DNA of 64,000 nucleotides from Acidicapsa dinghuensis (GTDB lineage Bacteria > Acidobacteriota > Terriglobia > Terriglobales > Acidobacteriaceae): contig NZ_JAGSYH010000013.1 of assembly GCF_025685685.1 (NCBI RefSeq), forward strand, positions 1 to 64,000, given 5' to 3'. The number at the start of each line of letters is the position of its first letter. The stretch's first letter is position 1. Positions 73-3,577 of this stretch are shown piece after piece. Made by a program: the position numbers and the translations under genes. The notes below the pieces were generated by a model. It did no database searches, was not told the DNA's origin, and worked only from the letters and a program-made list of their open reading frames with translations.

Positions 73-642
73 TCACAACCAGCTTCTCCGGTCCAAATCG
101 AATGGACAACCTCCTGAAAGATCACAGGTACCCAGGTCCTCACGAATAGAATCTTCTTTCAAACCAGTTTGGGGGGTGCGCTCTGTCATGGAGACAGGCG
201 CCGGCGCTGCCCCGCCTGCAATTTCGGAAGATTCTGAAGAAGGCTGCGGGCTGACTACAGTAGCATCCTCGCTGGACCAGCAGCCGTTGCCCGAAGGCAT
301 CTCCCGGATAGTAATGATCTTACCGGGGACAGCCCATTGAGTACTCGTTTTCGTCTGGCGGTCTGTAAGAAAATAGCTGGTACGCGCTGGATCCCTACCT
401 GTTGCAACACTGGTCATGATCATTATTCGACGGCCCTGCGAATCCACAGCTTCGATCTTCTGAAACACATGCTTCATGGTCACGCCATTCGCAAGCGTTT
501 GTACATTCGTGGTCGTCAACTTTGCGGTGTACGGATGGGAGACGAACGCGTCCTGAGACTTTTGAGTTGACTGACTCAAAGCGTTTACGGCAAAACCTGC
601 CAGAAGAGTGAGCGCGAGCATTCCCCAGCCTTTTCGCTGCAT
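73..642 (-). CDS. Hypothetical secreted protein, 189 aa
   Basis: I do not recognise a named family. The N-terminus has a basic stretch followed by a hydrophobic segment (about residues 7-23) ending near ALSQ, which reads as a Sec signal peptide, so the protein is probably periplasmic or surface exposed. The middle (residues 35-115) resembles small Acidobacteriota secreted proteins with a beta-rich, PYTA-containing start. The tail is Ser/Pro-rich and ends with three cysteines spread over about 60 residues. The gene lies alone on the minus strand. The IS element inserted only 25 nt upstream of its start, so its native promoter has probably been displaced. Function unknown. Confidence 0.6.
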   Translation of the reverse strand: MQRKGWGMLALTLLAGFAVNALSQSTQKSQDAFVSHPYTAKLTTTNVQTLANGVTMKHVFQKIEAVDSQGRRIMIMTSVATGRDPARTSYFLTDRQTKTSTQWAVPGKIITIREMPSGNGCWSSEDATVVSPQPSSESSEIAGGAAPAPVSMTERTPQTGLKEDSIREDLGTCDLSGGCPFDLDRRSWL

Positions 643-667
643 ATCGGCCTCTGAGACGCTATCGGAG

Positions 668-675
668 ATAGTTTG
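668..675. repeat. Left target-site duplication of the IS element
   Basis: ATAGTTTG directly outside the left inverted repeat. The same eight bases occur directly outside the right inverted repeat at 2535-2542. Eight-bp duplications are typical of the IS1595 family. Confidence 0.9.
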
Positions 676-700
676 GGTAATTATATACTTGACGAATCAA
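676..700 (+). repeat. Left terminal inverted repeat of the IS
   Basis: 25 bp beginning GGTAATTATA. It matches the reverse complement of 2510-2534 at 24 of 25 positions (A versus G at position 10). The transposase start codon lies 23 nt inside it. Confidence 0.9.
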
Positions 701-723
701 TTGGAAGTTAGTATGTTGTATGT

Positions 724-1677
724 ATGAAAGCGCCTCAGACTCTTCAAGAAGCGATAATCCACTTTGCGGACCCCGATAACTGCATTGCCTATATGGTTGC
801 TCACCGCTGGCCGGATGGCGTAGAGTGTCCGATCTGTGGCCGCAAAGATGTAGGCTATCTCGCCAATCAAAAGAAATGGCAGTGCAAGAGCGGTCACGCC
901 AAGCGGCAGTTCACGGCCAAGGTGGGCACGATCTTCGAGGATTCACCGCTGGGTCTCGATAAGTGGTTGCCTGCGGTGTGGCTCATCACTTCAGCAAAGA
1001 ATGGGGTTAGCTCTTGTGAAATTGCCCGCTCTCTGGGCGTCACTCAGAAGACTGCATGGTTCATGCTGCATCGCATCCGCTATGCCATGCAGAACAATTC
1101 TTTTGTGAAGCTAGGCGGCTCAGGCAGCGGCGGAGTTGAGGTTGATGAGACCTTTATCGGCGGCAAGGCGCGTAACATGCATAAGAGCGTAAAAGCGCGC
1201 CGGATCACCGCAACTGGGCCTAGTGATAAAACAGCCGTGCTAGGCATTTTGGAGCGCGGCGGGGAGATTCGAGTAGGTGTTGTCCCGAGCAGAAAGAAAA
1301 AGGTCTTACAGGACGAAGTGAAGAAGCATGTAGAGCCAGGTACCGAGCTGTACACCGATTTTCTGCTCTCCTATGAAGGGCTTGCAGCGGAGTACGGTCA
1401 TAAAGTTGTAGATCACGCAATCGAATACGTGAACGGTCTAGTCCACACCAACGGGCTCGAGAATTTCTGGAGCCTTCTGAAGCGTGGGATCGGCGGAACC
1501 TATGTGAGCGTGGAACCGTTCCATCTCTTCCGCTATTTGGATGAGCAAGCCTTCCGTTACAACAATCGGAAGGATAAGAGTGATGCGGACCGTTTTTCGA
1601 TGGTCCTCTCGCGGGTAGCTGGCAAGCGGCTTACCTATGCCGAAGTCACCGGCAAGGTGGGAGAAACGGCTTTCTAA
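724..1677 (+). CDS. IS1595-family (ISXO2-like) transposase
   Basis: DDE-type transposase of 317 aa that moves the surrounding element. An N-terminal zinc-ribbon-like segment carries CPIC (C35, C38) and C54/H58. An HTH-like region follows (about 95-120, CEIARSLGVTQKTAWFMLHR). The ISXO2-like catalytic core shows D141 (VDETFIGGK), D212 (YTDF) and the HTNGLENFWSLLKR block with E246 and K253. Length is normal for the family and no frameshift is seen. The start ATG lies just inside the left inverted repeat. Its stop overlaps that of the convergent passenger gene. Confidence 0.95.
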   Translation: MKAPQTLQEAIIHFADPDNCIAYMVAHRWPDGVECPICGRKDVGYLANQKKWQCKSGHAKRQFTAKVGTIFEDSPLGLDKWLPAVWLITSAKNGVSSCEIARSLGVTQKTAWFMLHRIRYAMQNNSFVKLGGSGSGGVEVDETFIGGKARNMHKSVKARRITATGPSDKTAVLGILERGGEIRVGVVPSRKKKVLQDEVKKHVEPGTELYTDFLLSYEGLAAEYGHKVVDHAIEYVNGLVHTNGLENFWSLLKRGIGGTYVSVEPFHLFRYLDEQAFRYNNRKDKSDADRFSMVLSRVAGKRLTYAEVTGKVGETAF

Positions 1678-1859
1678 TCCTTTGCGTTTGAAACGCGGTC
1701 GGCGGAAGGCTTCTTAGCCTTCCGCTTCTGTGCCCGCTCTGCCTTATCGATTTCCATCGCACGTTTTACCACTTCAGGTCTGACCCTCAGTATTTGGTCC
1801 ATCGTTCGATTAAATCTTTCGAGTTCTGTGTCCGCTTTCATGCGAAATCCGTGTTGCAT
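1674..1859 (-). CDS. Small basic passenger protein of the IS, 61 aa
   Basis: Short, highly charged protein with a helical look (residues 8-45) and a Lys/Arg-rich C-terminal third (AQKRKAKKP). I recognise no family. Its start lies inside the end of the upstream RusA-like gene (22-nt overlap), which suggests translational coupling, and its stop shares 4 nt with the transposase stop. The basic tail could bind DNA or RNA, but that is inference. It could also be a chance ORF, although the tight packing argues for a real gene. Confidence 0.5.
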   Translation of the reverse strand: MQHGFRMKADTELERFNRTMDQILRVRPEVVKRAMEIDKAERAQKRKAKKPSADRVSNAKD

Positions 1860-2536
1860 TGCAGGGTTTGAATTGGTTTCACTGTAACTCCAATTATCAG
1901 CTTGACATCGTTTCGGCCCGCACCCTCGGTAGGAGTTAAGAGAGTGTCGGCCCGCACTCGGACTTCCGTGATAAGCGCATCATCTTCCAGAAGACAGAAG
2001 AAGGGCTTTTCGGTGTCCAGCAAGGGCAATCCGCCGGTTTCTTCCAGGGTCTTGGGCATCCTGAGCGCATCGAATAAGGTCTTCAGTCGATTGTCTATAT
2101 CGCCACCTTGAACGATGCGTCCGAGCCCAACCTCTCGGCGCAAGAAGAGAATGTTCAGCTTACAGGCCAAAACTAGTTTTTCTGTCACCAGCGGAACAAA
2201 CTGGAATGGACCTCTTTGAAAGTTCCATGCAATTTGCTCCACCATCGGGGGTCCAGCGTTCCATTTCATCACGCTTCCCGAAACCTGATTCGAGGTCATC
2301 CAGTGATTCAGCCGTTGCTCCCAAAGCAAGCGGAGTTGAGGGTGAAATTGCTTTCGGATCGAATGCTTATGAGGCGCTCGATCCTCCTTGTAAGCCAGCA
2401 ATTCTCCTTCATAAACGAGGGTGAATTTCAAATCTTCCTCGCCTCCTAACGGCCAGTCGTCCGCCTTCCAGTCTCTGTCCGCTGCATCCTTAATCTTGCT
2501 CTTTTCTCCTTGATTCGTCAAGTACATAATTACCAT
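1838..2536 (-). CDS. RusA-like nuclease carried as IS passenger, up to 232 aa
   Basis: The C-terminal half shows the pattern of RusA-type Holliday-junction resolvases: GGDIDNRLKTLFDAL (D146, D148), then LEDDALITEVRV (D185, D186), then NDVKLIIGVTV. In E. coli RusA the equivalent acidic residues bind the catalytic metal. The protein is longer than RusA (about 120 aa) because of an extra N-terminal domain with KHSIRKQFHPQLRLLWEQ. Assignment is by motif only. The start is uncertain: the first two Met codons fall inside the right inverted repeat. A TTG at 2431 (LKFTLVYEGE) sits 10 nt after a strong GGAGG and may be the true start. It reads inward from the right IS end. Confidence 0.65.
   Translation of the reverse strand: MVIMYLTNQGEKSKIKDAADRDWKADDWPLGGEEDLKFTLVYEGELLAYKEDRAPHKHSIRKQFHPQLRLLWEQRLNHWMTSNQVSGSVMKWNAGPPMVEQIAWNFQRGPFQFVPLVTEKLVLACKLNILFLRREVGLGRIVQGGDIDNRLKTLFDALRMPKTLEETGGLPLLDTEKPFFCLLEDDALITEVRVRADTLLTPTEGAGRNDVKLIIGVTVKPIQTLQCNTDFA
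2510..2534 (-). repeat. Right terminal inverted repeat of the IS
   Basis: Reverse complement of the left repeat at 24 of 25 positions. It overlaps the first codons of the longest reading of the passenger gene. Confidence 0.9.
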
Positions 2537-2542
2537 AGTTTG
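2535..2542. repeat. Right target-site duplication of the IS element
   Basis: ATAGTTTG, identical to 668-675. Confidence 0.9.
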
Positions 2543-2629
2543 AGGCTAAAATACAGAGAGCGCAAGCATAACTTACTGCAACAGCCGCCTACTGTTACAA
2601 AGCCGAGCTGAGTTACAGCTTATACCGAG

Positions 2630-3577
2630 TTAAGTAAGCTGGGCGCCTGCTATTTTTTCCAGCACAGCAATGGGAGCCGATTCCGGCGTAACCATCGCAT
2701 GTTGATCAACGAGAAACGTCTGTTCGAGGGCGAACTGCCCGGCGAGGACAGCGTGCGGCGTTGTTTCGGTGTAGACCATCCAGCTGGAGCCGGGTGGGAA
2801 GTTGAAATACTCCTTGACGCAATTCTTCTGAAACTCCGCATCTTCCTTCATGGTGTTATGCAGACGCATCATGAAATCGTCATAGGGACCACGCTTCCAT
2901 TGCGGAACCAGTCCGGCAAGGCCGGTAGCCTGCGCGAGTTTCTTCCCGGCGCTGGCGGCTGCGTTGTCTGGCTGCGGCGCAGCGAGTTTGCCCGGCACGA
3001 ATTCGGAAACGACTTTGGCAAACGGCTCGCCGGTCACCCAGTCGCGTGTCTTCGATGGGTGAATATTGTGAAAGAAGCGCAGGATGCGGCGGCCATACGT
3101 TGGGCGAGTCGGAAAGGAATCTGTATGGAGCAGATCGTTGCGCCGGCGTACGGGCAGGTCGCGGCCATCCTCTTCGATGGGCCGGTAACTGGCGTAATCC
3201 AATTGCCACCGCTTCTGATAGGGAGCCAGAAATTCTGAAAGAAACGCCACGATCGAGGCAGAATAGCGGCGCATAACTGCATGTAGCTTTTCAAGTTCAG
3301 CCGCTGGCGTGGTCTTGTCATCGACACCGCTCAACTTATCGACGCCCGGTTTGTAGGCGATATTTTTATGCAAAGCGCTGCCGGTCTGGTGGCCGCTGAG
3401 CAATATTTCGAGATCTTCTGTGGGAATAGGAACCGGCGTCTGGGGAAAATACAGAATTCCGCCGGCTTCCAGCTGAGTGCACCAGGTTCGGATTGTTTCC
3501 AATCCAGTGACTGATCTAGAACTTGTATCGCGCAGCGCGCGGTTCAGGTCTTCGAGGGAGATTGCATGGACAGACAT
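2630..3577 (-). CDS. kdoO: Kdo hydroxylase family protein (Fe(II)/2-oxoglutarate dioxygenase)
   Basis: Proteins of this family hydroxylate C3 of the Kdo sugar in the LPS inner core, making Ko, using Fe(II), O2 and 2-oxoglutarate. The 315-aa sequence has the family block HTDSFPTRPTYGRRILRFF, where H151 and D153 form the HxD iron motif. A distal histidine (H275, TTPHAVLAGQF) completes the facial triad. There is no signal peptide, consistent with cytoplasmic or inner-face action. Length fits the family. No other LPS gene is visible nearby, so the substrate link rests on the family alone. A 9-bp hairpin lies 44 nt upstream of the start. Confidence 0.75.
   Translation of the reverse strand: MSVHAISLEDLNRALRDTSSRSVTGLETIRTWCTQLEAGGILYFPQTPVPIPTEDLEILLSGHQTGSALHKNIAYKPGVDKLSGVDDKTTPAAELEKLHAVMRRYSASIVAFLSEFLAPYQKRWQLDYASYRPIEEDGRDLPVRRRNDLLHTDSFPTRPTYGRRILRFFHNIHPSKTRDWVTGEPFAKVVSEFVPGKLAAPQPDNAAASAGKKLAQATGLAGLVPQWKRGPYDDFMMRLHNTMKEDAEFQKNCVKEYFNFPPGSSWMVYTETTPHAVLAGQFALEQTFLVDQHAMVTPESAPIAVLEKIAGAQLT

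Follow-up and report, generated by a model that had tools for sequence, protein, structure and literature searches.

A RusA-fold nuclease gene as likely passive cargo of a transporter-type IS1595 element in Acidicapsa dinghuensis

The window, the whole 64,000-nucleotide stretch of Acidicapsa dinghuensis DNA that was analysed, contains at positions 676–2534 an IS1595-family element that has paired ends, encodes an intact transposase as well as two genes on the minus strand, and is flanked by an exact target duplication of 8 bp. Its features are these:

668–675, unstranded: left copy of the target-site duplication, ATAGTTTG, identical to 2535–2542
676–700, unstranded: left terminal inverted repeat, transposase side, complementary to 2510–2534 at 24 of 25 positions and containing TTGAC (start 689)
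689–717, plus strand: predicted transposase promoter, with a -35 TTGACG within the repeat, a -10 TATGTT and 6 bases to the ATG
724–1677, plus strand: IS1595-family (ISXO2-like) DDE transposase, 317 aa, with Pfam and NCBIfam matches
1674–1841 (longer frame to 1859), minus strand: small basic protein of about 55 aa whose stop shares 4 bp with that of the transposase
1838–2431, minus strand: RusA-fold nuclease cargo, 197 aa, TTG start, assigned by start-codon column, predicted fold and catalytic residues
2442–2446, minus strand: GGAGG ahead of the TTG start, a likely ribosome-binding site for the nuclease
2510–2534, unstranded: right terminal inverted repeat, cargo side, matching 676–700 at 24 of 25 positions
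2535–2542, unstranded: right copy of the target-site duplication, ATAGTTTG, identical to 668–675

Arms of 25 bp (at most five mismatches) with an identical 8-bp flank occurred in none of 200 mononucleotide shuffles of positions 301–3000 and once in the real sequence. The transposase scores over the cut-offs of Pfam DDE_Tnp_IS1595 (PF12762, 2.4e-37) and Zn_ribbon_IS1595 (PF12760, 1.9e-8; an N-terminal zinc ribbon) and of NCBIfam IS1595 (NF033547, 1.1e-51). The element thus combines the features by which the IS1595 family is recognised, namely a DDE domain of the ISXO2 type with a zinc ribbon, inverted repeats and an 8-bp duplication, and it has passenger genes within its ends, as transporter insertion sequences (tIS) do. 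The small gene is convergent with the transposase, the two sharing the stop bases CTAA at 1674–1677, and its ATG at 1841 can start in an ATGA overlap (1838–1841) with the nuclease stop. A preliminary description of this DNA, made from the sequence alone, had reported the 24-of-25 repeats with their duplication, the intact ISXO2-like transposase and two minus-strand passengers packed tail to tail with it, and all of this held up. One full copy of the element is present in the 17 contigs of its own genome, so that a multicopy element there was rejected. An empty site was sought with the right flank across 41 genomes; apart from the own genome, the best match was 69% identical and started at query base 104, leaving the junction uncovered.

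The nuclease gene was delimited by comparison with its family. In 87 aligned frames, two of which (L005 and L018) represent one place, a single column holds 81 start codons (63 ATG, 14 GTG and 4 TTG), the remaining rows being four gaps, a GCG and an ATT that stems from misalignment of L025. Wherever V or L stands at this column (18 rows) the codon is GTG or TTG, and the column stands directly ahead of the conserved first strand of the protein. Because start codons pile up at this one position, we place the start of the window nuclease at TTG 2431–2429, with a GGAGG at 2446–2442 before it, which gives a protein of 197 aa. The same column led us to reject a longer reading frame, which begins at the terminal repeat, as the real gene. 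The preliminary description had assigned to RusA a longer protein bearing GDIDN and EDD motifs. Both motifs are present and the kinship stands, as set out below, but the supposed extra N-terminal domain is, judging by the alignment, upstream DNA read in frame.

Sequence searches alone brought little. The window nuclease by itself had no match in Pfam, PHROGs, NCBIfam or the PDB sequences, and a profile of its family retrieved only chance matches from the PDB sequences. An hhalign comparison with E. coli RusA alone gave a probability of 8.6, the 18 aligned columns being the motif. On the profile check that had been proposed for the RusA assignment, the window protein has no match to PF05866 (RusA), 35 of 65 relatives match that model weakly (best E 0.022), and the fold agrees. 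An AlphaFold model built from 65 aligned sequences, out of 76 usable members, had a pLDDT of 88.7 and a pTM of 0.85. Among solved structures its closest match was E. coli RusA, entry 1q8r, where 108 of 118 residues aligned at an rmsd of 2.8 A (Z 8.7), followed by the other RusA entries 2h8c (Z 8.4) and 2h8e (Z 8.1), and the next unrelated row had a Z of 4.5; Foldseek likewise placed RusA first, at a modest E of 3.8e-3.

The E. coli protein, the Holliday junction resolvase of prophage DLP12 (PF05866), has D70, D72, D91 and K76 as its essential residues. In the K-12 numbering D70, D72, N73, K76, D80 and D91 correspond to D111, D113, N114, K117, D121 and D151 of the window nuclease. All 65 family members share D111, D113, K117, D121 and D151, and 61 of them N114, counts that are inflated at the motif by the patterns used for retrieval (GDIDN..K and P.FCL.ED). 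The predicted catalytic set of the cargo nuclease would be D111, D113, K117 and D151, that is, a D-x-D-N-x-x-K motif plus a second aspartate. The window nuclease thus shares with E. coli RusA a predicted fold and the equivalents of D70-x-D72-N-x-x-K76 and D91, but at 197 aa it exceeds the 120 aa of RusA, its first helix being longer and a further stretch, modelled with low confidence, lying at about residues 45–75. It is also missed by the Pfam model, and its gene is borne by a DDE transposon instead of a cluster of phage genes. Predicted fold and catalytic aspartates plus lysine are those of RusA, and no sequence match over the curated cut-off was obtained; the predicted structure and the catalytic residues together support a relationship of the cargo gene product to RusA, the sequence searches being weak. 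A separate Pfam RusA match over the cut-off, distinct from the element, was seen elsewhere in the own genome (contig C12, 334827–335093), and a PF05866 search meant to assemble a RusA set gave matches in 3 of 60 genomes, not enough for the purpose.

We then consider the group of elements to which this one belongs. Ends with exact 8-bp duplications, sought around the transposases of the collected loci, gave 49 listed elements. Two of these, L125 and L150, were dropped as repeat artefacts and 47 were left; the 46 relatives of the window element among them were thus selected for having an 8-bp duplication. The nuclease is present in 16 of the 47, namely the window element and 15 that had been found through the nuclease. 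The other 31 come from 39 loci chosen among transposase matches in 297 genomes (36 whose transposase has a similarity of about 47% or higher, together with three weaker matches from the own genome), and in none of these 31 was the nuclease found. In every one of the 47 a further 844–3588 bp lies past the transposase and contains an ORF of 95 aa or more; no bare IS without cargo room was seen among these bounded elements, loci without clean ends having been left out.

What fills this space varies. Pfam was searched with 30 cargo proteins from 28 of the elements reached by way of the transposase (27 of the 31, plus L160), and 11 of the 28 elements have a cargo match over the cut-off while 17 have none. 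DUF3800 recurs in five (L136, L139, L140, L141 and L152), and the remaining matches occur in one element each: AIPR, an N6_N4 methylase with Mrr, SLFN_AlbA_2, GmrSD, HTH_3 and an SDH protease. By eye the cargo of L121, L128 and L129 also resembles DUF3800, although Pfam did not report it there. The own genome has five IS1595 loci, whose cargo ORFs are mutually dissimilar at E 0.01. One 4.3-kb element type is found at two unrelated sites (L029 2045–6319 and L030 4721–8974), with similarity ending at the repeats, an indirect hint of transposition. Its cargo block is 98–100% alike between the two and its transposase and nuclease regions 80–100% (in 150-base steps), an unevenness that looks like patchwork exchange. 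Two nuclease-bearing elements have a second cargo protein of 134–142 aa that appears related by eye (L025 6929–7333 and L036 6787–7215).

The small gene behaves differently from the cargo. With the two nearest frames taken per transposase stop, an exact 4-bp stop overlap with a convergent frame of 40–130 codons was found at 25 of 62 transposase stops, and the next commonest offset occurs 3 times. A profile of those 25 small genes matched within 38 of the 47 elements, including 18 of the 27 outside the seed, L152 weakly. The misses are L012, L014, L015, L020 and L022, whose transposases are only 37–40% like that of the window, and L038, L158, L159 and one of the two elements in L132. In 61 genomes, 21 of 28 matches to an 11-row alignment of the small gene (the window included) had an IS1595 transposase within the 1.5 kb of sequence retrieved. 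The 4-bp stop overlap is seen with different cargo, in L122, L029, L032, L127, L144, L145, L149, L154 and L143 as well as at 1674–1677 of the window. The small gene therefore appears, in most elements, to be the steadier partner of the transposase, present whatever the cargo, and the nuclease to come and go; the idea that the two passengers travel as a pair is not supported in that form. The protein has no name in Pfam or NCBIfam and one chance-level match in PHROGs, and its model, two helices and a tail, has a low pTM of 0.37. We infer that the transposition module includes it, perhaps in a regulatory role or as a DNA-binding accessory.

The two ends of these elements are not equivalent. In the set of 47 elements, to which L012 and L141 belong, TTGAC is present in the transposase-side end of 46, at bases 14–18 (13–17 in two), and in the cargo-side end of 19. 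Where the ends differ in those five bases (27 elements), TTGAC is without exception retained by the transposase side (27 to 0, p 1.5e-8); the window element keeps it in both ends. In the window a TTGACG-17-TATGTT arrangement precedes the transposase ATG, one site against a shuffle mean of 1.3 and so alone no better than chance. We suggest from the comparison of ends that the -35 box of this promoter lies within the terminal repeat, the cargo end being free to lose it. Between the end of the predicted -10 box and the ATG of the transposase (window 712–724) there are 6 bases, and a transposase mRNA made from this promoter would be leaderless.

The nuclease family was also followed beyond IS1595 elements. 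A scan of genome contigs confirmed 147 nuclease relatives, of which 80 were kept; together with three further genome loci, one viral contig and two plasmid loci these make 86 loci, one place being counted twice. The phage records searched for the family yielded none. An IS1595 transposase matched within 22 of the 86 loci; we count as IS-borne 20 of those 22 plus the window, and L034 and L037, with a distant or fragmentary transposase, are counted as not IS-borne. The nuclease tree of 81 members accordingly has 21 IS-borne rows and 60 without an adjacent IS1595 transposase. On this tree the IS-borne label needs 14 changes, at least 4 of them forced by starred branches; the tree was made by a quick method, with 35 of its 77 inner branches open and long branches for L025 (frame mis-set), L070 and L006. 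Downstream sequence of at least 2 kb and upstream sequence of at least 0.3 kb were available for 48 of the 60 non-IS rows, and 12 have shorter flanks. In L011 and L065, counted as not IS-borne, a small gene adjoins the nuclease. These two are probably cut-off or decayed elements, and with the 12 short flanks they mean that some of the 60 rows may be such remnants.

These data bear on the proposal, made in the preliminary description, that the nuclease might help to resolve branched intermediates formed by the IS1595 transposase. Its recurrent linkage to such transposases, in 16 target-duplicated elements spread over several phyla, confirms that a passenger nuclease in an IS1595 element is no isolated case and speaks for a transposition factor, as does the overlap of the nuclease with the small gene in the window. 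In L012, L015, L022, L014 and L020, moreover, nuclease and transposase distances are similar, an agreement that a functional tie would also be expected to produce, and over 19 IS-borne elements there is a weak overall correlation of the two sets of identities (Mantel r 0.23, a value reached in 59 of 5000 permutations). But the mismatches are strong: transposases 72% alike accompany nucleases 34% alike (L027/L038), 66% goes with 28% (L006/L070), and in L038/L046 the nucleases are 56% and the transposases 34% alike. Nuclease and transposase similarities thus appear largely to disagree, and the Mantel result is compatible with partial co-inheritance. Against this role there also stand the 31 of 31 other bounded elements found through the transposase that do without the nuclease, and the 60 of 81 tree rows, 48 of them with the longer flanks, that have it without an adjacent IS1595 transposase. 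We therefore regard a role as transposition factor as quite improbable, and an action on host or phage DNA, the other suggestion made at the outset, is compatible with the data. It had also been considered that the family might occur mostly outside insertion sequences with only this copy inside one; the first half of that describes the tree, and the second is contradicted by the 16 elements.

We consider it likely that the element in the window is an IS1595 element of the transporter type, with a slot whose cargo can be exchanged, and that the RusA-like nuclease is its passive cargo, probably directed at the host or at phages and not a factor in transposition. In such an element the DDE transposase, judging from its family, would bind the 25-bp ends and insert the whole unit, making the 8-bp duplication; the TTGAC of the transposase-side end would serve as the -35 element of the transposase promoter; and the small protein would act in the transposition module. 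The cargo protein is predicted to be a metal-dependent endonuclease acting, as RusA does, on branched (Holliday-like) DNA, and it would work for the host or against phages or other mobile DNA, being carried passively like the cargo of the sister elements.

What the cargo nuclease does for its carrier can be narrowed in two directions. That it serves specifically in defence against phages or plasmids, and is not a general repair enzyme, seems to us an open contender that falls somewhat short of probable. The sister elements carry AIPR, a methylase with Mrr, and GmrSD, and PADLOC, run on 35 cargo proteins, named one of them AbiU at 6.5e-155, methylase models being matched as well. AIPR/AbiU, GmrSD and restriction-modification genes occupy the same slot as the nuclease, yet the nuclease, unlike them, matches no defence model: PADLOC models found none of 7 family members at E 1. 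A choice of 110 out of 180 neighbours, from 43 free-standing loci, includes three TIR proteins, a type IIG enzyme (L031), HamB, NgoMIV, AbiU2 and a CAP12-type TIR, but these are uncontrolled tallies pooled over loci, among the first 25 families listed; three neighbours are phage integrases, others are metabolic, and 3 of 23 Burkholderiales copies were sampled. The free-standing copies L005, L009 and L024 have in their vicinity proteins that resemble TIR by eye.

Prophage RusA can replace RuvC, and the nuclease could in the same way aid DNA repair or recombination in the host and so favour its carrier. The RusA fold and catalytic residues fit this role, and so does the purifying selection on free-standing copies, for which dN/dS is 0.06–0.19 in five pairs (0.17 in the IS-borne pair L029/L030; in three further IS-borne pairs dS was saturated). 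The family is, however, as patchily spread as accessory genes are: it was found by profile in 2 of 61 genomes of relatives and in 4 of 396 of the phylum sample, the own genome included, or 1 of 60 and 3 of 395 besides it. On balance we think a repair role rather less likely than not.

The type of element is a known one. Insertion sequences with passenger genes are termed transporter IS (tIS) in the excerpts of PMC9330008 and PMC7986276, and the excerpt of PMC5704250 names MTnSag1 and tISCpe8 as IS1595 elements with passengers and describes both as integrative mobilizable elements, tISCpe8 being a lincomycin-resistance element according to a reference title. As far as those excerpts describe them, the window element is like tISCpe8 and MTnSag1 in having an IS1595 transposase, 25-bp ends and non-transposase genes inside, and unlike them in that its cargo is a RusA-fold nuclease and a small gene is convergent with the transposase. 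A literature search on IS1595 passengers, tIS and RusA gave no RusA-type passenger in the titles and abstract starts of the matches listed, a set that does not cover the founding IS1595 paper. The RusA-fold cargo and the swappable-slot layout look new. We also put forward, tentatively and with rather more doubt than belief, a bolder picture in which this IS1595 group is a gene-shuttling platform with a fixed module of transposase and small gene and a slot repeatedly refilled with accessory genes, among them many nucleases or conflict genes, single insertion sequences thereby serving as short carriers of defence, the small protein taking part in the exchange or transposition machinery and the RusA-fold family being a new branched-DNA defence nuclease.

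Insertion sequences are usually read as a transposase only. Here, all 47 bounded elements of one IS1595 group have room and reading frames for cargo, and the cargo differs between elements while the small gene beside the transposase is largely retained. If most of that cargo serves defence, single defence genes would cross between phyla on short elements such as these, where surveys based on islands would overlook them. The element ends offer a simple handle for mining new accessory genes, and an uncharacterised RusA-fold family has been gained that is ready for assay.
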